Below are positions 5,463 to 61,936 of a stretch of DNA of 64,000 nt, piece by piece. Source of the stretch: Cordylochernes scorpioides (Eukaryota; Arthropoda; Arachnida; Pseudoscorpiones; Chernetidae); contig CP092880.1 in NCBI GenBank assembly GCA_030710605.1, positions 23,518,467 to 23,582,466 of the forward strand, given 5' to 3'. The position numbers were made by a program, and so were the translations under genes. The notes beneath the pieces are model-generated. The model did no database searches. It was not told where the DNA came from and worked only from the letters and a program-made list of their open reading frames with translations. The number at the start of each line of letters is the position of its first letter. The stretch's first letter is position 1.

Positions 5463-5745
5463 TATTTTTGACGCGTGTGATTCTTTTCAAAATAAATCAA
5501 TTTTCTACTAACTTACTAACCTTAAAAAGTTGTTTTTCAAACAGAAATAATGTGATATATTTTTCTCTCAATATATCATAAGTATTTGATATATGTAAAT
5601 AATAATGTATATATAAAAATAGTATGTATTATTAATTTGTTAACGTGATAATCCTGTTGAAGGACTGACAAGTCCGAAAGCTAGAAAATAAAAGGTTGTA
5701 CAATAAACTTAGCCCTGGAGGCTCTATTTATTTTATTTAAAAAAT
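5463..5745 (+). mobile_element. HHR-D element, single copy
   Basis: Matches, inverted, the sequence around 28536-28705 and 29585-29640 (AACAGAAATAATGTGATATA; GTTAACGTGATAATCCTGTTG). It carries the variant motif at 5654-5684: CTGTTGA, stem AGGAC/GTCC, GAAAGCTAG, and ends CCCTGGAGGCTCTATTTATT as do the other D copies. Probably a terminal repeat of a Penelope-like element; inferred. Confidence 0.55.
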
Positions 5746-5764
5746 AACACCAACCAAAGTGGAA

Positions 5765-5897
5765 TTGAATAAAGTCAATAAAGCGTCCAGGGTTAAGTTT
5801 CTTGTATGATCTTGTATGAAGATGTTGAACAAGAAGTCAGTAGAGAAATTAAATTTTACAAGAAACTTATCCCTGGATACTTTATTGATTTTTATTA
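5765..5897. repeat. Foldback remnant of HHR-D type
   Basis: Inverted arms CAATAAAGCGTCCAGGGTT and ATCCCTGGATACTTTATTG with TTTCTTGTA/TACAAGAAA inside. The centre has lost the ribozyme-like motif. Confidence 0.55.
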
Positions 5898-5964
5898 AAC
5901 TATAAGTCAGAGGAAGAAAGTTTATTTCAGAAGTGGAATTGTACTGAGAACAGGTTCAATAAAT

Positions 5965-8399: not shown

Positions 8400-9440
8400 A
8401 CTCAAGGACAAAAATTAAGGAAGTAGAAAGTCTTTGATATCACCAATTATCTGTTTTTCATTTTTAAGGAGACAACATTTTTTTCACACTTGGTTATCTC
8501 GTGTGTCTTCAACAAAGCTCACTGTAATATCTTTCAGAGTTATTGTATGAATCCCGATATACATGCTAAAAGGTAAAACTTCCTTGAGTTTTGTCTCCAT
8601 GAGTGTATCATTCAGAGTTATTGTCTGAATCCCGATATACATGCTAAAAGGTACAACTTCCTTAAGTTTGGTCCATGAGTGTATCTTTCAGAGTTGTCTC
8701 AATCCCGATATACATGCTAAAAGGTACAACTTCCTTAAGTTTGGTCCATGAGTGTATCTTTCAGAGTTATTGTCTCAATCCCGATATACATGCTAAAAGG
8801 TAAAACTTCCTTGAGTTTTGTCTCCATGAGTGTATCTTTCAGAGTTATTGTCTGAATCCCGATATACATGCTAAAAGGTACAACTTCCTTAAGTTTGGTC
8901 CATGAGTGTATCTTTCAGATTTGTCTCAATCCCGATATACATGCTAAAAGGTAAAACTTCCTTAAGTTTTGTCCATGAGTATATCTTTCAGAGTTATTGT
9001 CTGAGAATCCCGATATACATGCTAAAAGGTACAACTTCCTTAAGTTTGGTCCATGAGTGTATCTTTCAGAGTTATTGTCTCAATCCCGATATACATGCTA
9101 AAAGGTACAACTTCCTTAAGTTTGGTCCATGAGTGTATCTTTCAGAGTTATTGTCTCAATCCCGATATACATGCTAAAAGGTACAACTTCCTTAAGTTTT
9201 GTCCATGAGTATATCTTTCAGAGTTATTGTCTCAATCCCGATATACATGCTAAAAGGTACAACTTCCTTAAGTTTGGTCCATGAGTGTATATTTCAGAGT
9301 TATTGTCTGAATCCGATATACATGCTGAAAGGTACAACTTCTTTAAGTTTTGTCCATGAGTGTATCTTTCATAGTTATTGTCTGAATCCCGATATACCTA
9401 CTAAAAGGTACAGCTTCCTTAAGTTTTGTCCATGAGTGTA
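8400..9440 (+). repeat. MITE-1 whose right end has expanded into a 76-bp minisatellite
   Basis: The left part (8400-8530) is an ordinary MITE-1 copy. From about 8530 to 9440 a ~76-bp unit is repeated about 12 times: GAGTGTATCTTTCAGAGTTA, TTGTCTGAATCCCGATATAC, ATGCTAAAAGGTACAACTTC, CTTAAGTTTTGTCCAT. The unit contains the right terminal inverted repeat of MITE-1. Some units lack ATT (73 bp). The 76- and 78-residue frames here are by-products. Confidence 0.85.
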
Positions 9441-9715
9441 TTTTTTCACACATCTTAGAGTAAGGACATTAGAAATTTTGTTTTATTTGGAAAATAAAAT
9501 GTTGATCTCAATGGTATCATTTCTTGATTACAAATATAATATGGAAAAATATAGCAAATAGTTCTGAGATGGTCATCGAGTGTGTCTTGCGGATTTGAAG
9601 TGGAAATGAGCCGGATCCCACTAACGTTAGCAATATCTATGAACTGTTGACAACTTCTGTAAATGACAGCGGCAACAAATAGCAATATTAATAATTTACT
9701 TCCATATAATATAGA

Positions 9716-9815
9716 AACTAAAAATAAAAAGGCATATCCTGACCAGGAGCACATGTGCTTTTCAGAAGGCAGAGCGCCATCTGGTGGAACAGAAATCAAC
9801 TAATCATTGATATGA
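9716..9815 (-). mobile_element. HHR-C unit fragment
   Basis: AAAAGGCATATCCTGACCAG, GAGCACATGTGCTTTTCAGA and GCGCCATCTGGTGGAACAG match the outer part of the HHR-C unit. Truncated after AACTAATCATTGATA. Confidence 0.75.
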
Positions 9816-10798: not shown

Positions 10799-11025
10799 TT
10801 AAAAATAAAAAAGGCATATCCTGACCAGGAGCACATGTGATTTTCAGAAGGCAGAGCGCCATCTGGTGAAACAGAAATCAAATTGGGTTGTCCAAATATC
10901 AGGGAACAGGTTAAATCAATGAATAGTTGATTTCTGTTCCATCAGATGGAGTTCTGCCTTCTGAAAAGCACATGTGCTCCTGGTCAGGATATGCCTTTTT
11001 TATTTTTAATATCAACACCTGAACT
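10799..11025. mobile_element. HHR-C foldback without ribozyme
   Basis: Two HHR-C end fragments in inverted orientation: GGCATATCCTGACCAGGAGC on the left and GCTCCTGGTCAGGATATGCC on the right, with TATCAGGGAACAGGTTAAAT between. The ribozyme segment is missing from both arms. Confidence 0.75.
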
Positions 11026-11099
11026 TTTTATTTTTTCTATTGTTTTTTCATATATATAAATATGTACCAAATGATACATCTCTCCCTTTAATTGCCCAT

Positions 11100-11493: not shown

Positions 11494-11575
11494 TTATTTA
11501 TTTTTAAGAGTAACATACGGGTCAAAAATATTTATTGAAATAAAAGACACTTCGGCCAGTAAATCTTTTTGTTGT

Positions 11576-11614
11576 CTCGACGTTTCGACAAAAATCTTTT
11601 GTCCTCGTCAGAAC
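11576..11614 (-). ncRNA. Hammerhead-ribozyme motif, family HHR-A
   Basis: Minus strand: CTGACGA, stem GACAAAA/TTTTGTC of 7 bp, GAAAC, GTC, GAG. The bases before the core are GTT rather than CTC, so stem I is weak in this copy. Stem III is only ACGT, which is self-complementary. Confidence 0.6.
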
Positions 11615-11675
11615 GTCAGCCTTGCAGCCTTAGAATAATTTCTAACGCTTTGCCAAATGTTTTAATTTTTGTTCG

Positions 11676-11714
11676 CTCCTGACGAAGACAAAATATTTTT
11701 GCCGAAACGTCGAG
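11676..11714 (+). ncRNA. Hammerhead-ribozyme motif, family HHR-A
   Basis: CTC-CTGACGA-AGACAAAATATTTTTGCC-GAAAC-GTC-GAG. The core residues and GTC cleavage triplet are intact, and stem I pairs CTC with GAG. Stem II has one mismatch relative to the GTC version. Confidence 0.65.
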
Positions 11715-12154
11715 ATAATAAAAGAATTACTGGCCGAAGTGTCTTTTATTTCAAGAATTATGAATGCCGGCCAGGTCAGCCTCTATTTTTACGAAGGTCA
11801 AAAATAGTTTCAATTTCTTATAAAAAATCGTTAATGCATCATGATAACGGAATGATCTATTTAATGAAATAAATGATATAACACCTATATATTGTCACGG
11901 TAGAGAAAACAAGTATTCCAAAATTTTAAGTATAAAAATAATTTATTAACTAAATCTATAGAATGCAAAAATGTGTCAATTAATTTTACAAGTGATAATC
12001 TACAAGCATGGTAAGGGGTGATGACTATGCAAATATTTATGATGATAAAATGACAACAGAGTATTTACAATAATTACTCAGAGACAATATATATAGCTTT
12101 TGATCTCTACATGCTGGAAGTTGTCGCGATTATCTAGTCACACACACCCTAAGC

Positions 12155-12935: not shown

Positions 12936-12964
12936 ATATTTACTCTCTAAAAATTTTAGAATTA

Positions 12965-13434
12965 AACCATGGGAACCTTAGAATTATTATAAAGACAATA
13001 GCTATTGGTCAGGACTTCAGCCACGCCTTCGACACCGTTCAAATACACACCATCATTCAAGGCCTCCGTGACTCTCCAGAAGAGTTGATACAGCTGTCCG
13101 AGAAAGGCAGGTTATTTACAAAGTTTGGAATATATAAGAAACCGATCTTACAGGTTTTCGGGCAAGACGTCCTTCTACGGGTACGGAATAATACTAGTGG
13201 CAATGGTCATTCTGTAGCCGTAAGAAAGGCATCTTGCCTTAAAACTTGTACGATCGGTTTCTTATATATTCCAAACTTTGTAAATAACCTGCCTTTCTCG
13301 GACAACTGTATCAACTCTTCTGGAGAGTCACGGAGGCCTTGAATGATGGTGTGTATTTGAACGGTGTCGAAGGCGTGGCTGAAGTCCTGACCAATAGCTA
13401 TTGTCTTTATAATAATTCTAAGGTTCCCATGGTT
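12965..13434. repeat. Large inverted repeat with possible RT-like coding trace
   Basis: Arms of about 183 bp (12965-13147 and 13251-13434) are nearly exact complements, with a ~100-bp spacer. A third piece of the arm end (ACTTGTACGATCGGTTTCTT) follows at 13440-13460. Translated in the frame TIAIGQDFSHAFDTVQ, the arm resembles the catalytic motif A region of reverse transcriptases (DFSxAFDTV). That reading is weak. Confidence 0.6.
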
Positions 13435-13599
13435 CAAAACTTGTACGATCGGTTTCTTATATAAAGAAGCACTTCTCCCTGACCTATGTTTCTTCTTCTA
13501 TAGTGAATAGGGAGATTATCGTTGTATTAATAAAGATTTTATTGAGCTGTAGTAGATTGTCCTCGTAGTAGATTTCTCATCAGGATCCCGGGGCGCAGC

Positions 13600-14869: not shown

Positions 14870-15115
14870 TTATGAAAAAGGCATCTTCTTATCGTGCAAC
14901 TGAAAGTTGCTGATGACTTGCGCCATCTATCGGAATAAAAATCAACTATTCTCGTTGATTCTTAATTATTCCAGAATTTGCTAAATACCTATTATTCCGA
15001 TAGATGGCGCAAGCCATCAGCAACTTTCAGTTGCACGATAAGGAGATGCCTTTTTTTTCATAATTTATTAATCTTATCCCAGTACAATATCACATTTGTA
15101 CTATTTTATTATATG
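14870..15115. mobile_element. HHR-B foldback without ribozyme
   Basis: Inverted arms AAAAAGGCATCTTCTTATCG/CGATAAGGAGATGCCTTTTT, with GTGCAACTGAAAGTTGC and GCGCCATCTATCGGAATAAA. The join lies near TTGCTAAATACCTATTATTC; the ribozyme segment between the arms is lost. Confidence 0.75.
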
Positions 15116-15138
15116 AATCTATGTACGAACTTAATGAT

Positions 15139-15340
15139 AGTTTTTCAAATTGAAGATACTTCGGCCAGTAAATCTTTTTATTATTTCGACGTTTCAACAA
15201 AAATCTTTTGTCCTCGTCAGGAGCAAACAAAAATTAAAACCTTTGGCAATTAAAGTAATAATAATGGCGATAATAAAAAGATATACTGGCCGAATTATCT
15301 TAAATTTAAATAACTATGAATGCCGGCCTCTATCTTTACG
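15139..15340. mobile_element. HHR-A element
   Basis: GATACTTCGGCCAGTAAATC on the left and GATATACTGGCCGAATTATC on the right form an inverted pair, followed by ATGAATGCCGGCC. Only the left arm keeps a ribozyme motif (15185-15223). Confidence 0.65.
15185..15223 (-). ncRNA. Hammerhead-ribozyme motif, family HHR-A
   Basis: Minus strand: CTC-CTGACGA, stem II GACAAAA/TTTTGTT, GAAAC, GTC, GAA. The core is intact; one stem I pair is lost relative to the CTC/GAG copies. Confidence 0.6.
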
Positions 15341-15719
15341 TTAATGCTAGTTGTCAAATTAGTGGGTGATGACACCTTCTAGCCACAAATTTAAAAGCAA
15401 GTTGATGCTGCATTGGGCAGCGATAGTTATACAAGAGGAGGTGAGGCATCTTAAGATGGACATTGGAGAGTTCTGCACGAGAATGTTTGCGGTCAGCATT
15501 TACACTCGACATCGATGAAAATTTATATGAATATGGTCCGTATCTTCTCATTGTCTTCAATGAAAGATCTGGCTTGTGTTGATATGTTTTGGGTAGACAG
15601 TAGAGATTTGTGTTATCTGTAGAAGAAACAATTGTGCTTTCTTTCACTTCTTATATATAGATGATGGAACTAACACCTACTCATATATTCTCATGCCCAG
15701 CAATGGCCGCAGCCTTGCA

Positions 15720-16310
15720 GAAAATTGACATAGACCCAGAGCAGCAGCTTTACACACCCAAGATAGTGGACATTGCTGCTGCTGCGATAGAGATGTATGG
15801 AGACATCTGAGGCTCTTCATTGGACACGACAACATCAACAGAAAATTGACATGGATCCAGAGCAGCAGCTTTACACACCCAAGATAGTGGACATTGCTGC
15901 TGCTGTGATAGAGATATATGCAGACATCTGAGACTCTTCATTGGACACGACAACAACAACAGAAAATTGACATGGATCCAGAGCAGCAGCTTTACACACC
16001 CAAGATAGTGGACATTGCTGCTGCTGTGATAGAGATATATGCAGACATCTGAGACTCTTCATTGGACACGACAACATCCACAGAAAATTGACATGGATCC
16101 AGAGCAGCAGCTTTACACACCCAAGATAGTGGACATTGCTGCTGCTGTGATAGAGATATATGCAGACATCTGAGACTCTTCATTGGACACGACAACAACA
16201 GAAAAGTGACATAGACCCAGAGAAGCAGCTTTACACACCCAAGATAGAGGGCATTGCGACTGCTGTTATAGAGATATATGAAGACATCTGAGGCTCTTCA
16301 TTGGACACGA
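15720..16310 (+). repeat. 121-bp tandem repeat, five copies
   Basis: Copies start at 15720, 15841, 15962, 16083 and 16201 (spacings 121, 121, 121, 118). Each runs GAAAATTGACATGGATCCAG, AGCAGCAGCTTTACACACCC, AAGATAGTGGACATTGCTGC ... CATTGGACACGACAACAACA. Single related pieces occur at 13630 and 38810, so the unit derives from a dispersed element. The minus-strand 68-residue frames across it are repeats of one translation, not genes. Confidence 0.9.
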
Positions 16311-16661
16311 CAGCAACGCGTTATTGCCTTATGATCAATGTATTTTCATATAAGTACTATCCACACAGGTTGTGATTTGGTTGCATTGTAATGGCCAGTT
16401 AGAGATAACTACGACTGATTGATTAGAAAACTAAAGTAGTTTGTATTAATTGAATCAAACACTGCCCGAACACAGTGCCAAAATTTGAATTTATTTTTGT
16501 ATCTCTATATTTACAAAGTCTTTGGCACACAGTTAATATTTCTCTCTCTATAACTGTGAATGCTTTCTTTAAAATTCCATCTTCAATAGTAATTTCTAAT
16601 TGTTTTTATCAAATTTCTTTACCAGAATTTGTGTATCTGCTTTCATAACTAACAAACTTAA
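16311..16661. other. Intron 2 sequence, no feature seen
   Basis: AT-rich with no recognisable coding region or repeat copy. Confidence 0.4.
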
Positions 16662-18593: not shown

Positions 18594-18965
18594 AAAAAAT
18601 AGTACAAATGTGATATTGTACTGGGATAAGGTGCATAATTATGAAAAAGGCATCTCCTTATCGTGCAACTGAAAGTTGCTGATGGCTTGCGCCATCTATC
18701 GGAATAAATATCAACTATTCTCGTTGATTTTTAATTATTCCAGAATTGGCCAAATACCCATTCTTGATTAATCACCACGCTGATGAGGCCCAACAGCCCG
18801 AAACGCGTCCGTGGTTAGCTTTTCTTGATTAATCAAGAATGGGTATTGGGCCAATTCTGGAATAATTAAAAATCAACGAGAATAGTTGCTATTTATTCCG
18901 ATAGATGGCGAAAGCCATCAGCAACTTTCAGTTGCACGATAAGGAGATGCCTTTTTTCATAATAC
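18594..18965. mobile_element. HHR-B foldback with ribozyme
   Basis: Arms GAAAAAGGCATCTCCTTATC (left) and its complement at 18935-18955 (right). Both carry GTTGCTGATGGC and CCATCTATCGGAATAAAT-type motifs. Between them lies the motif at 18775-18814. Left side begins AAAAAATAGTACAAATGTGA as in the array at 46590. Confidence 0.8.
18775..18814 (+). ncRNA. Hammerhead ribozyme motif, family HHR-B
   Basis: CCACG-CTGATGA-GGCCCAACAGCCC-GAAAC-GC-GTC-CGTGG. Stem I is 5 bp (CCACG/CGTGG), the core CTGATGA and GAAA is exact, and the predicted cut follows GTC. Stem III ACGCGT is self-complementary. Stem II has GGCC where other copies have GGGC, which weakens it. Confidence 0.8.
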
Positions 18966-19745: not shown

Positions 19746-20091
19746 TGCTGTTAACTTTGTATATTTATCTATTTTCTGAACATATGCAATGATTAGTTTT
19801 TACCTATATGTAAAGCCGACAGACCAAATTTACATTCCTCCAATACCTTCTCATAATACTGATCTTAACATAAATCTGGGTTAATTATGGATTTTAATTG
19901 TGGCTATTATCTTGTACAATTCTGGTATACTCCGGTTTATTCTATTGTTTTGCTTAGAAATTATTGATTCTATAACTAACCTTTTCAGTCTAGATTATAT
20001 TATTAATACACTATGATTTAAAATGATTTCCCATTAATTCTACCGCTATATTACATTCTTTATTTAATAAATGCACTCAAATAAGATACTT

Positions 20092-23087: not shown

Positions 23088-24506
23088 CACTGCATGACAT
23101 TGAAAATGGAACACCAAGAAATAGTGTCCAGAAAGTGATGAAACTCGGCAGACAGAGAGAGACAGGGACGAACAATAAGTGATCTTTATTTCAAAATGAT
23201 AGTCATAATACAGAGCGAGAACGGCGTCGGCTTAGTAGCAAGTAGGACCACCGCGGACGGCGATGCACGCAGCAACACGTCTAGGTAGAGAGTCAATCAG
23301 AGTACGGATGGCGTCCTGAGGGATGGATCTCCATTCCCTCTCAACCATTTGCCACAGTTCGTCTTCTGAACGCGGCTGTGGCAAGGCATGCAAACGGCGT
23401 CCAATGATGTCCCAGACATGCTCGATTGGTGAGAGATCAGGAGAGTACGGTGGCCAGGGAAGCATCTGTACATCTTGCAGAGCTTATTGGCTGATGCGAG
23501 CAGTGTGCGGTCGGGCGTTATCCTGCTGATAAAGGGCATTGGGTACCCCCTGAAGGTAGGGGAGTGTCACCGGTCGCAGCACATCATCAACGTATCGTTG
23601 GGCCGTCATAGTGTCCTGAATACGAAGTAAAGGTGACCTGGAATCATACGCGATTGCGCCCCAAACCATGATTCCACGTTGTCGCACGGTGGGGCGTTCC
23701 ACAATTGCTGCCGGATTGGACCTTTCTCCACGTCGACGCCACACGCGTACACGGCGACTATCACTGGACAAGCAGAAACGCGACTCATCTGAGAACACGA
23801 CCCTGTGCCATTCCGTCATCCACGTCGATCTAGCCCGGCACCATTCCAAATGTTGGCGCCTATTCGGTGGGGTCAATGGCAGTCTTCTTAGCGGACGGCA
23901 TGAGTGCAAGCCATTAGCAACCAATCGACGGAAAATGGTTCTGGTCGAGATGGAATGATCTAGGGTGTCTTGCACATGTTGCTGGATGGCGGTACAAGCG
24001 GCTTGTGGGGCCGCCACTGCTTGTCGAAGGATACGCCGATCCACATGTGCTGAAGTCACTCTGGTTGCACCGACATTCCTATAATTTGCCACATTTCCTT
24101 GTCCCAACCATCTTCTCCACAGTCGGTGCACCGTGGACGCACCAAGGTGTGTATCAGCTGCGATTTGACGTATGGACCAACCTGCCCTTTTCAGTCCGAT
24201 CACCATGCCCCTCGTAAAAGCGTCTGTCTGCTTGAACTGCCTCCGTTTACGATGACCTGGCATTCTCTGTTATTACACGTGTCTTTTGACACAAGAACAA
24301 AATTTCTACAATGATTTTCCTTGAAGAAAAAACGACACGTATACTGTCCTTTCTGCAAGTTCCTTCCCTTATATCTTACTCCATGTGCGCACGAGAGATG
24401 CGCATTTTACATCATTTGCATAACTCGGTTAGGCGCGTCTACCCTGAAATTTGCATAATTTTCTGGCCACTATTTCTTGGTGTTCCATTTTCAATGTCAC
24501 GCAGTG
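23088..24506 (-). mobile_element. Tc1-type DNA transposon inserted in the LINE
   Basis: Terminal inverted repeats start CACTGCRTGACATTGAAAAT and extend about 45 bp. TA flanks both ends (23086-23087 and 24507-24508). Length 1419 bp, close to the intact copy at 33605-35025. Confidence 0.9.
23232..24263 (-). pseudogene. Tc1-type transposase with one stop codon
   Basis: 24263-23484 encodes the helix-turn-helix domains (GLKRAGWSIRQIAADTHLGA, TVHRLWRRW) and the first catalytic aspartate in FSDESRF, then the second in QQDNARPH. A single in-frame TAA after RISQ near 23483 replaces CGA of the intact copy. 23465-23232 continues with MLPWPPYSPDLSPIEHVW (catalytic glutamate) to the same C-terminus TCY. 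Over 90% alike by eye to 33850-34881. This copy keeps DES where the other has DVS. Confidence 0.88.
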
Positions 24507-28534: not shown

Positions 28535-28535
28535 T

Positions 28536-28705
28536 AATATTATAAAATAAATGAAACTTCCAGGGTTAAGTTTCTTGTGCAACTTTTTATTTTCAAGCTT
28601 TTGGACTTGTCAGTCCTCCAACAGGATTATCACGTTAACAACTTAATAATAAATACAATTCTTATATATACATTATTATATACATATTTTATATACTTAT
28701 TATAT
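28536..28705 (-). mobile_element. HHR-D element, left part (split by a PLE)
   Basis: TAATATTATAAAATAAATGA, CTTCCAGGGTTAAGTTTCTT and the variant motif at 28594-28624 (minus strand CTGTTGG, stem AGGAC/GTCC, AAAAGCTTG; two core changes). The element resumes at 29585-29645 after the PLE insertion, matching 5545-5745 inverted. Confidence 0.65.
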
Positions 28706-28787
28706 TGTAAGGAACTCTTCCTAGTAAAATTTGCAATAAACAAGGCGATAAGGAAGATGGGTGTCTTTATTATACAGAATAAGCACG

Positions 28788-28818
28788 AGCTTTCGGGTAA
28801 AAACCCTTCGACAGGTAG
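28788..28818 (-). ncRNA. Hammerhead-like motif, family E1
   Basis: Minus strand: CTGTCGA, stem AGGGT/ACCC, GAAAGCTC then GTGC. The core has U where the canonical hammerhead has A6. Stem I can form as TAGCTAC/GTGCTTA with one mismatch. Its mirror copy is on the plus strand at 29489-29519. Confidence 0.4.
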
Positions 28819-29084
28819 CTATCACATAGCACGATGGACACTAATGGAAAGAGTTTTTTTAAATATATATATAGTAGAGGTAATTTGTACATACTGCGTA
28901 AAAAGAAAAGATGCAAAATAGATAAAAATTCTATCAAGCAAAAATATATGGAGGTAATTTGTATAGACTGCATGGAAAGAAAGAAGATGCAAATAAATAA
29001 TAAGATAAAGTACTATTAAACGAATATATATGGAGATACGGCTCGAGATAACATAGGAACTATTAAAGCTTTAAGAGATACCAG

Positions 29085-29283
29085 CAAGGAAAACACCATA
29101 AATGTCCGGCATGTCAATTTTTCTATTTATGCTATTGAGTTTTCTAGAGATAATAGATTCCAGCACCAATCGTTGATGCTGGTTGTGAATATGTAGGTAG
29201 TGAACAGTGGGATGGAGAAAGTCGAAGGAGTGACCAGTATCGGCTATATGCTGGTATATTAGGGATCTAGGGATATATTCGTT
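29085..29283 (-). pseudogene. Penelope-like GIY-YIG endonuclease, C-terminal fragment
   Basis: Minus-strand translation gives PRSLIYQHIADTGHSFDF, then QHQRLVLESIISRKLNSINR and KIDMPDIYGVFLAGIS with a stop. It aligns with the second PLE at 32536 (SLIVQHIRQTAHSFD..., RLVVEALLSLRHNSINRHID). The GIY-YIG motif itself is cut off. No reverse transcriptase remains. Confidence 0.75.
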
Positions 29284-29584
29284 TAATAGTACTTTATCTT
29301 ATTATTTATTTGCATCTTCTTTCTTTCCATGCAGTCTATACAAATTACCTCCATATATTTTTGTTTGATAGAATTTTTATCTATTTTGCATCTTTTCTTT
29401 TTACGCAGTATGTACAAATTACCTCTACTATATATATATTTAAAAAAACTCTTTCCATTAGTGTCCATCATGCTATGTGATAGCTACCTGTCGAAGGGTT
29501 TTTACCCGAAAGCTCGTGCTTATTCTGTATAATAAAGACACCCATCTTCCTTATCGCCTTGTTTATTGCAAATACTTATTATAT

Positions 29585-30350: not shown

Positions 30351-30373
30351 ACGCAATTGTTCTTAAAATTAAA

Positions 30374-30475
30374 GATATTCTTCGTCAAGTAAAACTTTCT
30401 ATTATCTCGACGTTTCGACAAAAATCTTTTGTCTTCGTCAGGAGCAAACAAAAATTAAAACATTTGACAAAGTGA
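30374..30475 (-). mobile_element. HHR-A fragment interrupted by an HHR-B foldback
   Basis: Carries the ribozyme motif at 30406-30444. The HHR-A sequence ACATTTGACAAAG stops at 30473 where the HHR-B foldback begins and resumes with TTTGACAAAGCGTTAAAAAT at 30750. TTTGACAAAG is therefore a 10-bp target duplication. Confidence 0.75.
30406..30444 (-). ncRNA. Hammerhead-ribozyme motif, family HHR-A, best copy
   Basis: Minus strand: CTC-CTGACGA-A-GACAAAAGATTTTTGTC-GAAAC-GTC-GAG. Stem II is 7 bp (GACAAAA/TTTTGTC), the core and GTC are intact, stem I is CTC/GAG. Confidence 0.65.
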
Positions 30476-30750
30476 AAAAATAGTACAAATGTCATATTGT
30501 ACTGGGATAAGGTGCATAAATTAAGAAAAAGGCATCTCCTTATCGTGCAACTGAAAGTTGCTGATGGCTTGCGCTATCTATCGGAATAAATATCAACTAT
30601 TCTCGTTGATTTTTAATATTTCCAGATTTGGCTAAATACCAATTCTGGAATAATTAAAAATCAACGAGAATAGTTTATATTTATTCCGATAGATGGCGCA
30701 AGCTATCAGCAACTTTCAGTTGCACGATAAGGAGATGCCTTTTTCTTAAT
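30474..30750. mobile_element. HHR-B foldback without ribozyme
   Basis: AAAAAATAGTACAAATGTCA, GGCATCTCCTTATCGTGCAA and GCTATCTATCGGAATAAATA, mirrored after TTGGCTAAATACCAATTCTGG. Flanked by the 10-bp duplication TTTGACAAAG (or near it). Confidence 0.75.
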
Positions 30751-30811: not shown

Positions 30812-30960
30812 CTGTGAAAAATAGACACTTTGGCCAGTTAGGTTTTTTTTTCCCAACGTTTCAACAAAAATCTTTTGTCTTTGTCAGGAGAAATAAATAA
30901 AAATAAAGCATTTGGCAAGGTGTTAAAAATTATTGTAAAAGTAATTGTTAAATTGTTGTA
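30812..30960 (-). mobile_element. HHR-A fragment, decayed
   Basis: GACACTTTGGCCAGTTAGG and a ribozyme remnant at 30852-30890 (CTGACAA instead of CTGACGA; GAAACGTTGGG). Continues AATAAAGCATTTGGCAAGGT as at 2640. Confidence 0.6.
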
Positions 30961-32185: not shown

Positions 32186-32255
32186 TTATATTAAGTACAT
32201 AAGTATAAGAATTTAAGACATGCGAGGATGTGTTTCTTAAAGGTTTTAATATGGG

Positions 32256-32286
32256 CGAGCTTTCGGGTTATTAACCCTTCTACAGG
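32256..32286 (-). ncRNA. Hammerhead-like motif, family E2, left arm
   Basis: Minus strand: CTGTAGA, stem AGGGTT/AACCC, GAAAGCTCG. U replaces A6 of the canonical core; stem I pairing is poor. Self-complementary AGCT at the stem III position. Confidence 0.35.
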
Positions 32287-32535
32287 ACATCATATCTGAG
32301 TAAAACTGCATCTTATATACATATCCATATTGAGAAAATTAGCATATATACAAGAAAACTATAAACATATTAACAAAATTGGTGAAAAAGTAAAAATAAG
32401 AAAAATCTGCGTGTTCTGAGTATGCTAAGAAGTAAAATCAAAAATAGTTGTACAAAAAGGATACGGTTCAATTTAGGGCTGCAATAGTAAAACGATCCAA
32501 AATAAAACTCTCTGGCAATGGTCACCTAAGGTACA

Positions 32536-32822
32536 CTATGGCAATATTGCATTGTATATATCAGGGATGTCTATGTGTCTGTTAATACTGTTATGTCTTA
32601 AAGAGAGCAACGCCTCGACGACCAACCTTCTGTATTTGTTCGTGATTCCTGAATAATATGCCTGTGGTTGAGAGGTATCGAAAGAATGTGCTGTCTGTCT
32701 AATGTGTTGTACTATAAGGGATCTAGGTTCACTGTTTCTGATGTTTCTATGGTGTTCATCCATCCTATCTTTGATTCTACGGCCTGTTTCTCCTATATAC
32801 AAACTATTGCAATCTGAGCATA
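32536..32822 (-). pseudogene. Penelope-like GIY-YIG endonuclease fragment (left arm)
   Basis: Encodes CSDCNSLYIGETGRRIKDRM, DEHHRNIRNSEPRSLIVQHI, RQTAHSFDTSQPQAYYSG and RRLVVEALLSLRHNSINRHI, ending DIPDIYNAILP and stop. YIGETGRR is the YIG half of the GIY-YIG nuclease signature, with the catalytic arginine following. CxxC before it fits the PLE-specific zinc finger. The open frame continues to 32916 only because it reads antisense into the other arm. The reverse transcriptase is absent. Confidence 0.85.
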
Positions 32823-32828
32823 TAGGAG

Positions 32829-33082
32829 AAACAGGCCGTAGAATCAAAGATAGGATGGATGAACACCATAGAAACATCAGAAACAGTGAACCTAGATCCC
32901 TTATAGTACAACACATTAGACAGACAGCACATTCTTTCGATACCTCTCAACCACAGGCATATTATTCAGGAATCACGAACAAATACAGAAGGTTGGTCGT
33001 CGAGGCGTTGCTCTCTTTAAGACATAACAGTATTAACAGGCACATAGACATCCCTGATATATACAATGCAATATTGCCATAG
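32829..33082 (+). pseudogene. Penelope-like GIY-YIG endonuclease fragment (right arm)
   Basis: Mirror copy of the left-arm fragment: GETGRRIKDRMDEHHRNIRN through DIPDIYNAILP and stop. The GIY-YIG start is lost at the palindrome loop. Sequence identity to the left arm is almost complete, so the two arms were probably made in one event. Confidence 0.85.
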
Positions 33083-33331
33083 TGTACCTTAGGTGACCAT
33101 TGCCAGAGAGTTTTATTTTGGATCGTTTTACTATTGCAGCCCTAAATTGAACCGTATCCTTTTTGTACAACTATTTTTGATTTTACTTCTTAGCATACTC
33201 AGAACACGCAGATTTTTCTTATTTTTACTTTTTCACCAATTTTGTTAATATGTTTATAGTTTTCTTGTATATATGCTAATTTTCTCAATATGGATATGTA
33301 TATAAGATGCAGTTTTACTCAGATATGATGT

Positions 33332-33362
33332 CCTGTAGAAGGGTTAATAACCCGAAAGCTCG
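33332..33362 (+). ncRNA. Hammerhead-like motif, family E2, right arm
   Basis: CTGTAGA-AGGGTTAATAACCC-GAAAGCTCG, the mirror of 32256-32286. Same U6 deviation. Confidence 0.35.
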
Positions 33363-33604
33363 CCCATATTAAAACCTTTAAGAAACACATCCTCGCATGT
33401 CTTAAATTCTTATACTTATACTCTTCAGAGGATTTTAACTCTCTTTATATTAAGTACATAAAATATAATTCATAAATAAATCATTAAGAGATAAATGTAA
33501 AAATATATGATCTATTAAAACATTTGAAAAAATGATTTAAACAAAAAATTGTAAGAAATGTTTTGAAATTTTTAAAACTATATATATAACTATCTCTCAA
33601 TATA

Positions 33605-35025
33605 TACACTACGTGACATTGAAAATGGAACACCAAGAAATAGTGGCCAGAGAATTATGCAAATTTCAGGGTAGACGCGCCTAACCGAGTTATGCAAATG
33701 ATGTAAAATGTGCAGCCCTCGTGCGCACATGGAGTAAGATATAAGGGAAGGAACTTGCAGAAAGGACAGTATTCGTGTCGTTATTTCTTCAAGGAAAATC
33801 ATTGTAGAAATTTTGTTCTTGTGTCAAAAGACACGTGTAATAACAGATAATGCCAGGTCATCGTAAACGGAGGCAGTTCAAGCAGACAGACGCTTTTACG
33901 AGGGGCATGGTGATAGGACTGAAAAGGGCAGGTTGGTCCATACATCAAATCGCAGCTGATACACACCTTGGCGCGACCACGGTGCACCGACTGTGGAGAA
34001 GATGGTTGGAACAAGGAAATGTGGCAATTTATAGGAATGTCGGTGCAACCAGAGTGACGTCAGCACGTGTGGATCGGCGTATCCTTCGACAAGCAGTGGC
34101 GGCCCCACAAGCCACTTGTACCGCCATCCTGCAACATGTGCAAGACACCCTAGATCATTCCATCTCGACCAGAACCATTTCCCGTCGATTGGTTGCTAAT
34201 GGCTTGACCTCATGCCGTCCGCTAAGAATACTGCCATTGACCCCACCGAATAGGCGCCAACGTTTGGAATGGTGCCTGGCTAGATCGACGTGGATGACGG
34301 AATGGCACAGGGTCGTGTTCTCAGATGTGTCGCGTTTCTGTTTGTCCAGTGATAGTCGCCGTGTACGCGTGTGGCGTCGACGTGGAGAAAGGTCCAATCC
34401 GGCAGCAATTGTGGAACGCCCCACCGTGCGACAACGTGGAATCATGGTTTGGGGCGCAATCGCGTATGATTCCAGGTCACCTTTACTTCGTATTCAGGGC
34501 ACTATGACGGCCCAACGATACGTTGATGATGTGCTGCGACCGGTGACACTCCCCTACCTTAAGGGGGTACCCAATGCTCTTTATCAGCAGGATAACGCCC
34601 GACCGCACACTGCTCGCATTAGCCAACGAGCTCTGCAAGATGTACAGATGCTTCCCTGGCCACCGTACTCTCCTGATCTCTCACCAATCGAGCACGTCTG
34701 GTACATCATTGGACGCCGTTTGCATGCCTTGCCACAGCCGCGTTCAGAAGACGATCTGTGGCAAATGGTTGAGAGGGAATGGAGAGCCATCCCTCAGGAC
34801 GCCATCCGTACTCTGATTGACTCTCTACCTAGACGTGTTGCTGCGTGCATCGCCGTCCGCGGTGGTCCTACTTGCTACTAAGCTGACGCCGTTCTCGCTC
34901 TGTATTATGATTATCATTTTGAAATAAAGATCACTTATTGTTCGTCCCTGTCTCTCTCTGTCTGCCGAGTTTCATCACTTTCTGGCCACTATTTCTTGGT
35001 GTTCCATTTTCAATGTCACGCAGTG
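33605..35025 (+). mobile_element. Tc1-type DNA transposon, complete
   Basis: Terminal inverted repeats start CACTACGTGACATTGAAAAT (left) and CACTGCGTGACATTGAAAAT (right, complement), about 45 bp, with TA at both flanks (33603-33604 and 35026-35027). One intact transposase frame inside. 1421 bp. Lies in intron 2 of the kinase gene, same strand. Confidence 0.93.
33850..34881 (+). CDS. Tc1/mariner-superfamily transposase, open frame
   Basis: A 343-residue DDE transposase that would bind the terminal repeats and cut and paste the element. Residues 1-60 form the first helix-turn-helix (GLKRAGWSIHQIAADTHLGA, TVHRLWRRW). Residues 65-125 form the second (SARVDRRILRQAV, HSISTRTISRRL). The basic stretch RVRVWRRRGE (171-180) could aid nuclear import. 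Catalytic residues are D159 (FSDVSRF), D248 (QQDNARPH) and E281 (SPIEHVW); by my count 32 residues separate the last two, unlike Tc1's 34. V160 replaces the usual glutamate of DESRF, which the copy at 23232-24263 retains, so activity is uncertain. The start codon at 33850 is 245 bp inside the left end, and the stop leaves about 140 bp to the right end. Confidence 0.93.
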   Translation: MPGHRKRRQFKQTDAFTRGMVIGLKRAGWSIHQIAADTHLGATTVHRLWRRWLEQGNVAIYRNVGATRVTSARVDRRILRQAVAAPQATCTAILQHVQDTLDHSISTRTISRRLVANGLTSCRPLRILPLTPPNRRQRLEWCLARSTWMTEWHRVVFSDVSRFCLSSDSRRVRVWRRRGERSNPAAIVERPTVRQRGIMVWGAIAYDSRSPLLRIQGTMTAQRYVDDVLRPVTLPYLKGVPNALYQQDNARPHTARISQRALQDVQMLPWPPYSPDLSPIEHVWYIIGRRLHALPQPRSEDDLWQMVEREWRAIPQDAIRTLIDSLPRRVAACIAVRGGPTCY

Positions 35026-38149: not shown

Positions 38150-38485
38150 AGGTTGTCCCAAAATTTCATGTTTTTCTTATTACTTGATGAATAATATTAT
38201 TACGGCAAGAATACATAATACAGAAAAAAGGCATTTCCTGATCGTGCAACTGAAAGTTGCTGATGGCTTACGCCATCTATCGGAATAAATATCAACTAAT
38301 CGTTGATTTTTAATTATTCCAGAATAATTTATCCACCTGATCCAAGTACAAATTCACTTTTGTACTATTTATCACAATAGATAATACAATTACTTTATAC
38401 ATAATACAAAGACATTATACATAACGGCTAATAATATTGGTATTTCAATTTTATGCAAGTATTTACGAACTTTTGGGACAACCTT
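38150..38485. mobile_element. MITE-4 (mariner-type) copy
   Basis: AGGTTGTCCCAAAATTTCAT to CGAACTTTTGGGACAACCTT. Interrupted at about 38224-38382 by an HHR-B fragment. It starts 50 bp after the exon end. Confidence 0.8.
38224..38382 (-). mobile_element. HHR-B unit fragment inside MITE-4
   Basis: AAAAAAGGCATTTCCTGATC, GCAACTGAAAGTTGCTGATG and CGCCATCTATCGGAATAAAT, then a jump to CCAAGTACAAATTCACTTTT. The ribozyme segment is missing. Confidence 0.75.
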
Positions 38486-44830: not shown

Positions 44831-45128
44831 ATTAATATTTATTTAAAAAAGCAAAGAGATATCGTAGTAAAAATTGAACTTGAGTAGAAATATTTGTTGG
44901 GAAAAATACATATATATATATATATATTAAAAAACGAAAGAAAAAAATAAAAGATAAAAAGATCAGGTGTTGAAATCAATATTAAAAAAGGCATATCCTG
45001 ACCAGGAGCACATGTGCTTTTCAGAAGGCAGAGCGCCATCTGGTGGAACAGAAATCAACTATTCATTGATTTAGCCTGTTCCCTGATATTTGGCCAACCC
45101 AATTTCTTGGTAAATCAAGAAAAGCCAT

Positions 45129-45168
45129 CCACGAACGCGTTTCGCGCTTTTGGCGCTCGTCAGCGTGG
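45129..45168 (-). ncRNA. Hammerhead ribozyme motif, family HHR-C
   Basis: Minus strand: CCACG-CTGACGA-GCGC-CAAAA-GCGC-GAAAC-GC-GTT-CGTGG. Stem I 5 bp, stem II 4 bp, exact core, cleavage triplet GTT. Confidence 0.82.
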
Positions 45169-45399
45169 AGTAGGCTGAACCATTGCGACCAAAAAATAAT
45201 TTTTGATCCCAATGGCTTCCTGAAAAACCAAGAAATGGGTATTTAAGGCCAAACTTGCGTAAATACGCTTAGCACATTAAAAAACGAAAGAAAAAAATAA
45301 AAGATAAAAAGATCAGGTGTTGAAATCAATATTAAAAAAGGCATATCCTGACCAGGAGCACATGTGCATTATTTTTTGGTCGCAATGGTTCAGCCTACT

Positions 45400-45439
45400 C
45401 CACGCTGACGAGCGCCAAAAGCGCGAAACGCGTTCGTGG
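45400..45439 (+). ncRNA. Hammerhead ribozyme motif, family HHR-C
   Basis: CCACG-CTGACGA-GCGC-CAAAA-GCGC-GAAAC-GC-GTT-CGTGG. First of three plus-strand copies in tandem; identical core and stems. Confidence 0.82.
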
Positions 45440-45748
45440 ATGGCTTTTCTTGATTTACCAAGAAATTGGGTTGGCCAAATATCAGGGAACAGGCTAAATC
45501 AATGAATAGTTGATTTCTGTTCCACCAGATGGCGCTCTGCCTTCTGAAAAGCACATGTGCTCCTGGTCAGGATATGCCTTTTTTAATATTGATTTCAACA
45601 CCTGATCTTTTATCTTTTATTTTTTTCTTTCGTTTTTTAATGTGCTAAGCGTATTTACGCAAGTTTGGCCTTAAATACCCATTTCTTGGTTTTTCAGGAA
45701 GCCATTGGGATCAAAAATTATTTTTTGGTCGCAATGGTTCAGCCTACT

Positions 45749-45788
45749 CCACGCTGACGAGCGCCAAAAGCGCGAAACGCGTTCGTGG
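45749..45788 (+). ncRNA. Hammerhead ribozyme motif, family HHR-C
   Basis: Second tandem copy, identical to 45400-45439 and 349 bp downstream of it. Confidence 0.82.
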
Positions 45789-46098
45789 ATGGCTTTTCTT
45801 GATTTACCAAGAAATTGGGTTGGCCAAATATCAGGGAACAGGCTAAATCAATGAATAGTTGATTTCTGTTCCACCAGATGGCGCTCTGCCTTCTGAAAAG
45901 CACATGTGCTCCTGGTCAGGATATGCCTTTTTTAATATTGATTTCAACACCTGATCTTTTTATCTTTTATTTTTTTCTTTCGTTTTTTAATGTGCTAAGC
46001 GTATTTACGCAAGTTTGGCCTTAAATACCCATTTCTTGGTTTTTCAGGAAGCCATTGGGATCAAAAATTATTTTTTGGTCGCAATGGTTCAGCCTACT

Positions 46099-46138
46099 CC
46101 ACGCTGACGAGCGCCAAAAGCGCGAAACGCGTTCGTGG
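46099..46138 (+). ncRNA. Hammerhead ribozyme motif, family HHR-C
   Basis: Third tandem copy, identical in core and stems, 350 bp after the second. Confidence 0.82.
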
Positions 46139-46449
46139 ATGGCTTTTCTTGATTTACCAAGAAATTGGGTTGGCCAAATATCAGGGAACAGGCTAAATCA
46201 ATGAATAGTTGATTTCTGTTCCACCAGATGGCGCTCTGCCTTCTGAAAAGCACATGTGCTCCTGGTCAGGATATGCCTTTTTTAATATATATATATATAT
46301 GAAAAAAGAAAAAGGCATCTCCTTATCGTGCAACTGAAAGTTGCTGATGGCTGAGCGCCATCTATCGGAATAAATATCAACTATTCTCGTTGATTTTTTA
46401 TTCCATAATTGGCCAAATACCCATTCTTGATTAATCAAGAAAAGCTAAC

Positions 46450-46489
46450 CACGGACGCGTTTCGGGCTGTTGGCCCTCATCAGCGTGGT
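46450..46489 (-). ncRNA. Hammerhead ribozyme motif, family HHR-B
   Basis: Minus strand: CCACG-CTGATGA-GGGC-CAACA-GCCC-GAAAC-GC-GTC-CGTGG. Every core position fits the canonical hammerhead; predicted cut after GTC. Confidence 0.85.
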
Positions 46490-46986
46490 GCAAGCTGTAC
46501 CTCAAAGACCAAAAAAAAATTGGTCATTAAGGCATCCTGAAAAAATCATGAAACGGGTAGTTAAGGCCAGAATTGCGTGAGGACTCTACACAATGTGAAA
46601 AAATAGTACAAATGTAACATTGTACTGGGATAAGGTGCATAAATCATGAAAAAAGAAAAAGGCATCTCCTTATCGTGCAACTGAAAGTTGCTGATGGCTG
46701 AGCGCCATCTATCGGAATAAATATCAACTATTCTCGTTGATTTTTTATTCCATAATTGGCCAAATACCCATTCTTGATTAATCAAGAAAAGCTAACCACG
46801 GACGCGTTTCGGGCTTTTTCTTTTTTCATGATTTATGCACCTTATCCCAGTACAATGTTACATTTGTACTATTTTTTCACATTGTGTAGAGTCCTCACGC
46901 AATTCTGGCCTTAACTACCCGTTTCATGATTTTTTCAGGATGCCTTAATGACCAATTTTTTTTTGGTCTTTGAGGTACAGCTTGCA

Positions 46987-47026
46987 CCACGCTGATGAGG
47001 GCCAACAGCCCGAAACGCGTCCGTGG
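46987..47026 (+). ncRNA. Hammerhead ribozyme motif, family HHR-B
   Basis: CCACG-CTGATGA-GGGC-CAACA-GCCC-GAAAC-GC-GTC-CGTGG, identical to 46450-46489 on the other strand. Confidence 0.85.
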
Positions 47027-47294
47027 TTAGCTTTTCTTGATTAATCAAGAATGGGTATTTGGCCAATTATGGAATAAAAAATCAACGAGAATAGTTGATA
47101 TTTATTCCGATAGATGGCGCTCAGCCATCAGCAACTTTCAGTTGCACGATAAGGAGATGCCTTTTTCTTTTTTCATGATTTATGCACCTTATCCCAGTAC
47201 AATGTTACATTTGTACTATTTTTTCACATATATATATATATTCCGGTAGAAAAGAACGCTGATAATTATGAAGATCCTTTATTACTTAAAAGGT

Positions 47295-49744: not shown

Positions 49745-50735
49745 TCCTCCTTCAAAGACTTCTTCTACTGAGGGTGAGCCACATGGTCCCTCCATATCTC
49801 CCTTCTTTAGTGTCTTCCTCTACTGAGGGTGAGCCACATGGTCTCTCCATATCTCCCTCCTTCAATGCCTTCCTTTACTGAGGGTGGGCCACATGGTCTC
49901 TCCATATCTCCCTTCTTTAGTGTCTTCCTCTACTGAGGGTGAGCCACATGGTCTCTCCATATCTCCCTCCTTCAATGCCTTCCTTTACTGAGGGTGGGCC
50001 ACATGGTCTCTCCATATCTCCCTTCTTTAGTGTCTTCCTCTACTGAGGGTGAGCCACATGGTCTCTCCATATCTCCCTCCTTCAATGCCTTCCTTTACTG
50101 AGGGTGGGCCACATGGTCTCTCCATATCTCCCTTCTTTAGTGTCTTCCTCTACTGAGGGTGAGCCACATGGTCTCTCCATATCTCCCTCCTTCAATGCCT
50201 TCCTTTACTGAGGGTGGGCCACATGGTCTCTCCATATCTCCCTCCTTTAGTGCCTTCCTCTACTGAGGGTGGGCCACATGGTCTCTCCATATCTCCCTCC
50301 TTCAATGCCTTCCTTTACTGAGGGTGGGCCACATGGTCTCTCCATATCTCCCTCCTTTAGTGCCTTCCTCTACTGAGGGTGGGCCACATGGTCTCTCCAT
50401 ATCTCCCTCCTTCAATGCCTTCCTTTACTGAGGGTGGGCCACATGGTCTCTCCATATCTCCCTCCTTTAGTGCCTTCCTCTACTGAGGGTGGGCCACATG
50501 GTCTCTCCATATCTCCCTCCTTCAATGCCTTCCTCTACTGAGGGTGAGCCACATGGTCTCTCCATATCTCCCTCCTTTAGTGCCTTCCTCTAATGAGGGT
50601 GGGACACATGGTCTCTCCATATCTCCCTCCTTTAGTGCCTTCCTCTAATGAGGGTGGGACACATGGTCTCTCCATATCTCCCTCCTTTAGTGCCTTCCTC
50701 TAATGAGGGTGACCACACGGTCTCTCCATACTTCC
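49745..50735 (+). repeat. 55-bp minisatellite, about 17-18 copies, two alternating types
   Basis: Unit: TTTAGTGTCTTCCTCTACTG, AGGGTGAGCCACATGGTCTC, TCCATATCTCCCTCC. Type a has TTTAGTG(T/C)CTTCCTC, type b TTCAATGCCTTCCTT, alternating so the higher-order period is 110 bp. The last units (50580-50735) are all type a with TAATGAGGGTGGGACACA. It ends about 155 bp before the exon at 50891. Confidence 0.92.
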
Positions 50736-50890
50736 TCCGCCATCCTCTTCATCTCCTCGTAGGAGTGTCGTCCAGTCCATTGTTTAGATCATCTATGTAT
50801 TCCTGTCGTCTCCTAAATTTTGTCTCCATGAGTGGTATTTTTATGTTATTCGTATTTGCATATTATCTCACAGGTGCGGTATGAACGCAG

Positions 50891-57956: not shown

Positions 57957-58240
57957 ATTAATGGCTTAAAAAAGAGATTAAACTCATCAGTTTTAACTTA
58001 AAATTTGACGTCTGTGGCCAAAATCGCGTCGTCTGATTTTTCCTCTTCAATGCAGCTATCTGTTAAGCAAAAACCTGTCAAATACGTCGACATCAATTTA
58101 GTTCTATGAAGTAGTTTAAATTACTACTTATTACCTCTCTAAGAAAAGACAAATTTTTAAAATTACATACATTTTAGAATAAATATATTAATTATACACT
58201 ATTATATACACGCCTTTCAAACAAACATAAATTATTTAAG

Positions 58241-58640
58241 AAAAAAGGAATCTCCTTATCGTGCAACTGAAAGTTTCTGATGGCTTGCACCATCTATCAG
58301 AATTGTTATGTACTCTTCTACCTAATATTCAATAGGTAGTGTAGTTTCTATTAAAAGGGATTGTATGTTACTAAAAAGTTATATATTTTCATAATATTTT
58401 ATTATTACAGAATTATCATAAGAACTAGAAACATGAATATCTCACGCTATATATTGATTACATCACATAACAACAACCAAGTCCTTGGTCAAAACCATAT
58501 AAACATATTATATATTACAAGAATAAATATAAATAAATTAAGAAAAAGCCATCAGCAACTTTCATTTGCACGATAAGGAGATGCCTTTTTCTTAATTTAT
58601 TTACCTTATCCCAGTACAATTTGTACTATTTTTTTCACAA
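58241..58640. mobile_element. HHR-B element, diverged foldback without ribozyme
   Basis: Left AAAAAAGGAATCTCCTTATC, CACCATCTATCAG; right AGCCATCAGCAACTTTCATT, AAGGAGATGCCTTTTTC, TTATCCCAGTACAATTTGTA. The ~240 bp between is unrelated to the HHR-B unit. Confidence 0.65.
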
Positions 58641-61428: not shown

Positions 61429-61936
61429 ACAATCAAGGACAAAACTTAAAGATGTGGGAAGTCTTTAATGGTCACCGGTCTTCTGTTTTTTGAAGGAGAC
61501 AGAGGCAATTTTGTTCACACTTGGTTATCTCGTGTGTTTTCAATAAAGGTCACTGTAATACTTTTCAGAGTTATTGTCTGAATCCAGATATACATGGTAA
61601 AAGGTACAACTCCCTTAAGTTTTGTTCATGAGTGTATCTTTCAGAGTTATTGTCTGAATCCCGATATACATGGTAAAAGGTACAACTTCCTTAAGTTTTG
61701 TCCATGAGTGTATCTTTCAGAGTTATTGTCTGAATCCCGATATACAAGGTAAAAGGTACAACTTCCTTAAGGTTTGTCCATGAGTGTATCTTTCAGAGTT
61801 ATTGTCTGAATCCCGATATACATGGTAAAAGGTACAACTTCCTTAAGGTTTGTCCATGAGTGTATCTTTCAGAGTTATTATCTGAATCCCGATATACATG
61901 CTTGAAAGGTATAACTTCTCAAGGTTTGTCCATGAG
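61429..61936 (+). repeat. MITE-1 with right end repeated as a ~76-78-bp tandem array
   Basis: The MITE-1 body is followed by 5 copies of GTGTATCTTTCAGAGTTATT...GTTTTGTCCATGA, most carrying ACATGGTAAAAGG rather than ACATGCTAAAAGG of 8530-9440. An independent expansion of the same type as at 8400. Confidence 0.85.

Follow-up and report, generated by a model that had tools for sequence, protein, structure and literature searches.

Mirrored insertions of retrozymes in the genome of Cordylochernes scorpioides carry a fixed pair of ends. Their two arms stand head to head with the 3′ ends outward, and one arm ends at a site designated S1 and the other at a second site, S2. As far as the sequences go, mirroring with fixed ends is the rule across the classed mirrored loci (31 of 32). 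Penelope-like elements (PLEs) of the same genome bear the same footprint. Based on these results, we suggest, with a probability of about 0.8, that a PLE protein cuts AT-rich DNA, that both 3′ ends prime in a retrozyme circle and that the two cDNAs are joined. Metazoan non-LTR retrozymes are an already known kind of element; the insertion footprint is the new part. The window, i.e., the whole stretch of 64,000 nucleotides that was analysed, corresponds to G000:C18:23518467-23582466, and the genome searched comprises 2.62 Gb in 24 contigs.

Two adjoining retrozyme loci

The family A locus (44926-46288) is composed of 3.9 near-identical 350-bp units in two arms placed head to head, with 1.26 units on the minus strand and 2.63 units on the plus strand. 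It is directly adjoined by a family B locus (46299-47229) of 347-bp units, which is mirrored like A and contains two hammerheads. Tracts of (TA)n flank A on the left, separate A from B and flank B on the right. The features are as follows.

44910..44928: (TA)n target tract, left of the family A locus
44926..45367, minus strand: family A left arm, 1.26 units, 3′ end S2 (unit position 208 from the hammerhead cut), tailed
45128..45169, minus strand: type I hammerhead, family A (strict descriptor and HH9 match)
45368..46288, plus strand: family A right arm, 2.63 units, 3′ end S1 (unit 155), tail-less
45399..45440, plus strand: type I hammerhead, family A (strict descriptor and HH9 match)
45748..45789, plus strand: type I hammerhead, family A (strict descriptor and HH9 match)
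46098..46139, plus strand: type I hammerhead, family A (strict descriptor and HH9 match)
46285..46300: (TA)n tract separating the family A and B loci
46299..46815, minus strand: family B left arm, ~1.5 units of 347 bp, 3′ end S1, tail-less
46448..46489, minus strand: type I hammerhead, family B (strict descriptor and HH9 match)
46814..47229, plus strand: family B right arm, 1.20 units, 3′ end S2, tailed
46986..47027, plus strand: type I hammerhead, family B (strict descriptor and HH9 match)
47228..47241: (TA)n tract, right of the family B locus

When the 1363 bp of family A were compared with one unit, the sole difference was 1 nt in a T run, located in the right arm (one in 921 bp); the family B arms showed no differences from one unit. 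The inner ends of the family A arms are at unit 117 and 284. The two families are ~76% identical over aligned parts (BLAST). At 45368-46288, TRF reported a period of 350, 2.6 copies and 99% matches. An earlier note on this DNA had described plus-strand ribozymes 349 and 350 bp apart in near-identical tandem and inverted units of ~350 bp. The same spacing was found here, and both TRF and arm mapping agree with the array (3.9 units). Its extent is larger than noted, since family B, ten further window loci, the end-fixed mirroring and the Penelope elements with the same footprint had been missed, and the inverted units stand with the correction that the mirrored unit, too, has a complete hammerhead.

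The strict type I descriptor (core, stem II of at least 3 bp, stem III, cleavable UH and stem I of at least 4 bp) found six hammerheads in the 64 kb, four in family A and two in family B, and no matches in 20 dinucleotide shuffles. This bears out the claim of a hammerhead, here a predicted ribozyme, in each unit. Stem III consists of 2 bp closed by a 2-nt loop within the palindrome ACGCGT. Hammerheads with such a short stem III work better as dimers. A seventh hammerhead near 18774 has the core, and its stem II has only 2 bp under the strict rule. The covariance check proposed by the earlier note gave no matches to Rfam at the gathering threshold, which formally goes against its claim; below the cut-off of 52, Hammerhead_HH9 matched all six motifs (family A, E 4.3e-5 and 31.3 bits; family B, E 1.5e-3 and 26.5 bits). 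Matches to the microRNA families MIR5048, MIR4208 and mir-3688 were far below their cut-offs and were rejected; the first two sit on inverted repeats. A scan of viral contigs with the hammerhead pattern returned no matches, and a looser pattern returned seven.

There are no open frames of at least 110 aa (stop to stop) at 44926-47229, and for this reason the repeats were classed as retrozymes and not as PLEs; the units lack the RT and GIY-YIG endonuclease that an autonomous PLE encodes. They are tandem and, at 350 and 347 bp, lie in the size range of retrozymes (~150-450 bp), with a low GC of 0.40. Folded as circles, the two units reached minimum free energies of -113.6 (z -6.9) and -112.6 (z -9.0) against 100 shuffles each, so that their predicted self-pairing is far above that of shuffles, as expected of retrozymes. 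The previous assignment to animal retrozymes fits: the unit size, the tandem arrangement, the hammerhead of type I and the low GC are all features given in PMC7229834, and A and B almost certainly represent two families of metazoan non-LTR retrozymes. The suggestion of recent activity is supported as well, given that the unit passes of the family A locus differ by one T-run indel and that copies 97-100% identical occur elsewhere in the genome.

Further retrozyme copies in the window

With short weak matches left aside, BLAST located ten further loci in the window that were taken as retrozyme copies, giving 12 in total. Eight are mirrored, and four (at 6.4, 9.7, 16.7 and 51.1 kb) have one orientation. 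In all eight mirrored loci, the minus arm is on the left and the plus arm on the right, which places the 3′ ends outward. Besides the two adjoining loci, the mirrored ones are as follows.

10806..11049: family A mirrored retrozyme, left S1, right S2
14874..15107: family B mirrored retrozyme, left S1, right S2, TSD ATATGAATCTAT
18594..18956: family B mirrored retrozyme, left S2, right S1, exact flank match of only 7 bp
30467..30747: family B mirrored retrozyme, left S2, right S1, TSD ATTTGACAAAG, adjoining a PLE-type hammerhead repeat
38210..38376: family B mirrored retrozyme, left S1, right S2, no clear TSD
58226..58639: family B mirrored retrozyme, left S1, right S2, TSD ACAAACATAAATTAT

The arms of the TSD-flanked locus at 58226..58639 are separated by 243 bp of other sequence (58304-58546), a spacer that resembles the captured spacers of rotifer Pen1 (PMC3846280). 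Other repeats share the window. Two arrays of a similar 76-bp satellite occupy 8527-9445 and 61563-61936, and a truncated retrozyme at 9726-9811 is followed by related sequence. Unrelated tandem arrays have 121-bp units (15718-16312) and 55-bp units (49759-50738). Two Tc1/mariner-like transposase frames lie at 23484-24269 and 33844-34881, the latter of 345 aa with HTH_Tnp_Tc3_2 and DDE_3.

Arm ends of the mirrored loci

S1 lies ~145-163 nt and S2 ~198-211 nt from the hammerhead cut, the two being ~55 nt apart. In the window, 20 of 20 arms end at S1 or S2, and each of the eight mirrored loci has one arm of each kind. The rule was stated before the genome loci were fetched but after a listing had already revealed some of the ends.

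For family A, only the best 40 of 887 genome candidates were scored, so the sample is not random; 32 loci were fetched. Seven of these (L047, L060, L062-L065 and L067) showed one orientation with the family A query. Two were left out as duplicates judged by flank and inner ends (L043 and L054), and one as too rearranged (L041). Among 22 classable independent mirrored loci, 21 consisted of one S1 and one S2 arm, all with the 3′ ends outward, a count in which the shorter tail of L069 (unit 187) was taken as S2. The rule is broken by L056, which has Ns in its stretch and whose arms end at unit 229 and 203. Arm pairs of the opposite, tail-to-tail orientation were absent from the sample. A short minus piece past the right arm of L044, beyond a (TA)n tract, is read as a separate insertion.

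In the 40 kb beside the window, two more independent mirrored loci follow the rule; a third resembles a duplicate of the 58-kb locus, three are single pieces, and one edge locus was left unclassed. Taken together, window, genome and neighbouring loci have discordant arm ends in 31 of 32 cases, with family B included only from the window and its neighbourhood. This value was not reached in any of 100,000 permutations of the arm ends, whose classes were assigned by hand. L051 and L053 share inner structure, and without one of them, the count is 30 of 31. The longer (S2) end is on the left in 14 loci and on the right in 17.

In the family B genome search, the best 40 of 1362 candidates were scored. 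The best 150 of 290 matches, nearly all full units, formed 40 clusters, of which 25 were head-to-head, none tail-to-tail and 15 of one orientation; the last figure is an upper bound, because the window's own mirrored locus is among them.

The fetched family A arms range from 0.2 to 3.8 units, and family B arms reach 14 full units. At G000:C15:81839168-81844851, 14 full family B minus units stand in a row and are followed by at least one plus unit; this minus arm is by far the longest among the matches listed. Several retrozyme loci lie within duplications that are partly inverted, namely L042 and L043 on C13 and L045 and L054 on C9. On C13, some retrozyme matches recur every ~17.5 kb.

Target sites and unit identity

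Among the 11 window loci examined that lie outside (TA)n, 7 are bordered at their outer edges by perfect repeats of 11-18 bp, taken as target site duplications (TSDs) (four of eight retrozymes and three of three PLEs), a count that excludes the 6.4- and 9.7-kb loci and the loci inside (TA)n. In the controls, none of 110 cross-locus pairs exceeded 10 bp, and 18 of 2000 random pairs reached at least 11 bp. No passing TSD was found at 10.8, 18.6, 38.2 and 51.1 kb. These short duplications and AT-rich targets are those expected of PLEs.

In the genome sample, TATATATA stands on both sides of 10 of 21 loci, at which a TSD cannot be told for this reason; random window pairs gave none. TATATA occurs in at least one flank of 18 of the 21 loci, with six element bases counted, and in 10% of random window pairs. 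The cross-locus TSD control of this sample was spoilt by the microsatellite. L055 and L058 are two retrozymes that share one (TA)n context within a repeated flank yet point in opposite directions; a host repeat carrying a (TA)n tract therefore seems to be a recurrent retrozyme target.

Four young loci (L039, L040, L042 and family A of the window) contain 5-6 unit passes over both arms. Within them, divergence is 0 to 0.0006 substitutions per site with gaps ignored, and between loci, it averages 0.047. The distance between L039 and L040 is 0.0003, and that of these two to the window locus is 0.004-0.005; as they are near-identical, the identity within each shows mainly youth and not a single template. 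Older loci are diverged internally, with means up to 0.07. Family A arms run through the cleavage site as many as four times. The simplest template for such arms, and probably the true one, is a circle, an uncut multimer being the alternative.

Penelope-like elements with the same footprint

Two mirrored PLE 3′ ends were found in the window.

28705..29573: PLE 3′ end, mirrored, 301-bp arms 99% identical, tail on the left arm only, TSD ATACTTATTATAT
32199..33434: PLE 3′ end, mirrored, 600-bp arms 100% identical, tail on the right arm only, TSD TTTATATTAAGTACATAA

Both arms of the second (32199-32798 and 32820-33419) encode the C-terminal part of a GIY-YIG-like endonuclease, and the sequence between the arms of the first encodes 62 aa that are 55% identical to it. 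This 32.5-kb fragment (94 aa) or the longer frame gave nothing above the cut-offs in Pfam, NCBIfam, PDB and homologue searches; GIY-YIG was matched below the cut-off (E 0.015), and a single-sequence structure prediction of the 94 aa had a pLDDT of 46. A third, related mirrored PLE (L034) matched the GIY-YIG Pfam family above the cut-off (E 2.8e-5). A tBLASTn search with the endonuclease gave one weak match in the window (19905-19994, E 0.007).

In the genome, the 32.5-kb endonuclease had 43,385 first-look candidates, of which the best 150 were scored; these young copies are 98-100% identical and contain open frames of as much as 825 aa. These 150 matches formed 103 clusters: 31 head-to-head, none tail-to-tail, 7 same-orientation and 65 single. 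It should be noted that the PLE sample, like those of the retrozymes, consists of best-scoring copies and is not random. For the six of 12 loci cut out that had both ends in the sequence, the tail was on exactly one arm in 6 of 6 pairs, and the shared flanks were 9-14 bp. The retrozymes show the same three traits of the PLE footprint: head-to-head copies, 3′ ends outward and a tail on one copy.

PLE-type minimal hammerheads (CTGACGA...GAAAC, without the stem III loop) are present at 2537-2753, 11500-11761, 15137-15220, 30360-30441 and 30815-30887, and the repeats at 2537-2753 and 11500-11761 are mirrored head to head. At the 2.6-kb locus, a likely 9-bp TSD, TCTCGGTAA, was read by eye. A further family of PLE-like 3′ ends (3161-3344, 5652-5927 and 28535-28626) has hammerhead-like CTGTTGAAGGAC...GTCCGAAAG stems and is mirrored at 3.2 kb. 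The tails of the PLE-like loci at 2.6, 11.6, 53.8 and 3.2 kb were read partly by eye, and those at 11.6 and 3.2 kb have no clear TSD. At the centre of another mirrored repeat (12962-13437, arms ~93-96%) is a hammerhead-like stem similar to the one in the 32-kb PLE.

Sequence around the S1 site

In each of seven families (A, B and five PLE-like), a stem of 5-10 bp can be drawn whose loop contains S1. In the stem-length test, other stems were picked for family A and the 3.2-kb PLE, and 231 and 197 of 300 shuffles were as good. The stem-energy test over the seven families gave single p values of 0.004-0.15 and a Fisher value of 1.5e-6 against shuffles, and as a control, 1-28% of random window positions reached the single energies. 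The stems of A and B differ at one compensatory pair; within retrozyme stems, covariation was not significant (54 of 500 shuffles reached the score). The predicted S1 hairpin is thus only moderately supported.

The window contains the loop box ATGCCTTTTT 24 times, with 0.5 occurrences expected. Families A and B have this box in common with two PLE31-type 3′ ends (31909 and 53799), in which it stands at the corresponding place; one match (56455) lies outside both groups. The box ATATGCCTTTTT at S1 is likewise common to the retrozymes and the PLE31-type 3′ ends. The PLE31-type end has 910 genome candidates, and an endonuclease frame upstream of it was absent in the one copy examined (L087).

Proposed insertion pathway

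The units, ribozyme motifs, head-to-head orientation and single S1 and S2 arms per insertion, together with TSDs at some loci, unit passes that are identical within young loci and a matching footprint in PLEs that bear an endonuclease, are read directly from the DNA. From these features, we infer the following pathway. Retrozyme units would be transcribed, and the hammerheads would cut the transcript to ~350 nt. The monomers would then be ligated into highly base-paired circles, as PMC7229834 leads one to expect. A Penelope-like protein, acting in trans, would cleave AT-rich DNA, in many cases (TA)n, on both strands, and the cuts would leave 3′ overhangs of ~8-18 nt. From each overhang, reverse transcription would be primed within the circle, at S1 for one and at S2 for the other; S1 seems to be located in a short hairpin and S2 just 3′ of it. 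The cDNA could circle the template repeatedly, which would produce multi-unit arms, and the two cDNAs would be linked head to head, either overlapping by 0-9 nt or with filler between them. Based on the arm ends and the PLE footprint, dual priming of the PLE type very likely underlies the retrozyme insertions. Priming by (TA)n microhomology alone and ends set just 3′ of T6 runs were considered and rejected, as fixed S1 and S2 sites account better for the ends.

More tentatively, and with some doubt on our part, one PLE dimer may work on one circle, its protomers starting at S1 and S2 in a two-headed rolling-circle reaction. The S1 start would then lie inside the hairpin loop and the S2 start just beyond it, the polymerases would chase each other round the same circle, and the strict rule of one S1 and one S2 arm would be the scar of a single reaction.

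Alternatively, the loci could be decayed terminal repeats of PLEs (solo pLTR-like pieces) and not independent retrozymes. They do share the footprint, as well as ATATGCCTTTTT at S1 in PLE31-type 3′ ends; however, complete hammerheads with stem III, multi-unit arms without coding sequence between the units and young copies elsewhere at 97-100% identity make this origin unlikely. Self-priming, in which the 3′ end of a cDNA folds back or an antisense template primes itself, would also produce an inverted repeat, and in rotifer PLEs, inverted repeats with junction palindromes are common and have been read in this way (PMC3846280). Simple fold-back predicts equal outer and matching inner ends, but the outer ends differ in nearly all classed loci, and the inner ends and arm lengths differ within loci, as in family A (1.26 against 2.63 units, unit 117 against 284). 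We regard it as quite unlikely, and two primers are favoured because the arm ends are discordant. Mobilization by a LINE could be proposed on the ground that the window contains LINE copies with endonuclease/RT domains, but LINE regions are absent from the 25 longest of its 51 inverted pairs, and the one-tailed head-to-head footprint is known from PLEs (PMC3846280), so this route is very improbable. An ordinary satellite array with a local inversion would account for tandem 350-bp units in a window with satellites and for the family B locus of 14 full units, but it is hardly credible for dispersed copies with unrelated flanks, some TSDs, fixed 3′ ends and a single orientation rule.

Relation to known systems

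The protein of a lizard PLE (PAc) cuts and extends both strands and prefers AT-rich DNA, and its reverse transcription starts internally at two adjacent sites, which define the "tail" (PMC11167929). Rotifer Penelope elements form head-to-head copies with an optional tail on one, for which self-priming was proposed (PMC3846280). The retrozymes resemble such endonuclease-containing PLEs in head-to-head repeats with one tail, short TSDs, AT-rich targets, two internal RT starts, hammerheads and tandem units (PMC3846280, PMC11167929). In contrast to them, a retrozyme unit lacks any RT or endonuclease frame, and its enzyme has to be supplied in trans.

In L1 twin priming, too, both target 3′ ends prime, and the 5′ ends meet in the middle. 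There, complementary parts of a single RNA are copied into the two cDNAs, whereas here both arms copy the same region, often repeatedly.

Animal retrozymes were defined by Cervera and de la Pena (2020; PMC7229834), who named PLEs as strong candidates for their mobilization and gave TSDs, when present, as longer than 4 bp; the same conjecture appears in PMC7761336 and PMC11722881. The elements described here are like those of PMC7229834 in tandem units of a few hundred bp, type I hammerheads, low GC and a self-paired predicted circle. They differ in their head-to-head, one-tailed insertions, and PLE mobilization is a proposal there; the words "inverted" and "target site" are absent from PMC7229834. 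Schistosoma W elements are likewise satellite-like repeats, some with hammerhead ribozymes, with indications of TSDs and intra-element inverted repeats, but a head-to-head two-arm structure or paired end sites are not described in the accessible text (PMC8490949). No earlier report of the head-to-head one-tailed footprint in retrozymes was found in the literature searched, subscription papers and preprints being outside its scope.

In the literature cited here, as far as its accessible text goes, both the enzyme that spreads animal retrozymes and the insertion mode of PLEs are open questions. This one genome holds 887 (A) and 1362 (B) first-look retrozyme candidates and tens of thousands of PLE candidates, and the copies examined bear a readable scar linking the two. 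At the level of sequence, the strict insertion signature ties a known kind of element to Penelope. If the proposed pathway is true, circular RNA would be a natural template of the Penelope reverse transcriptase.
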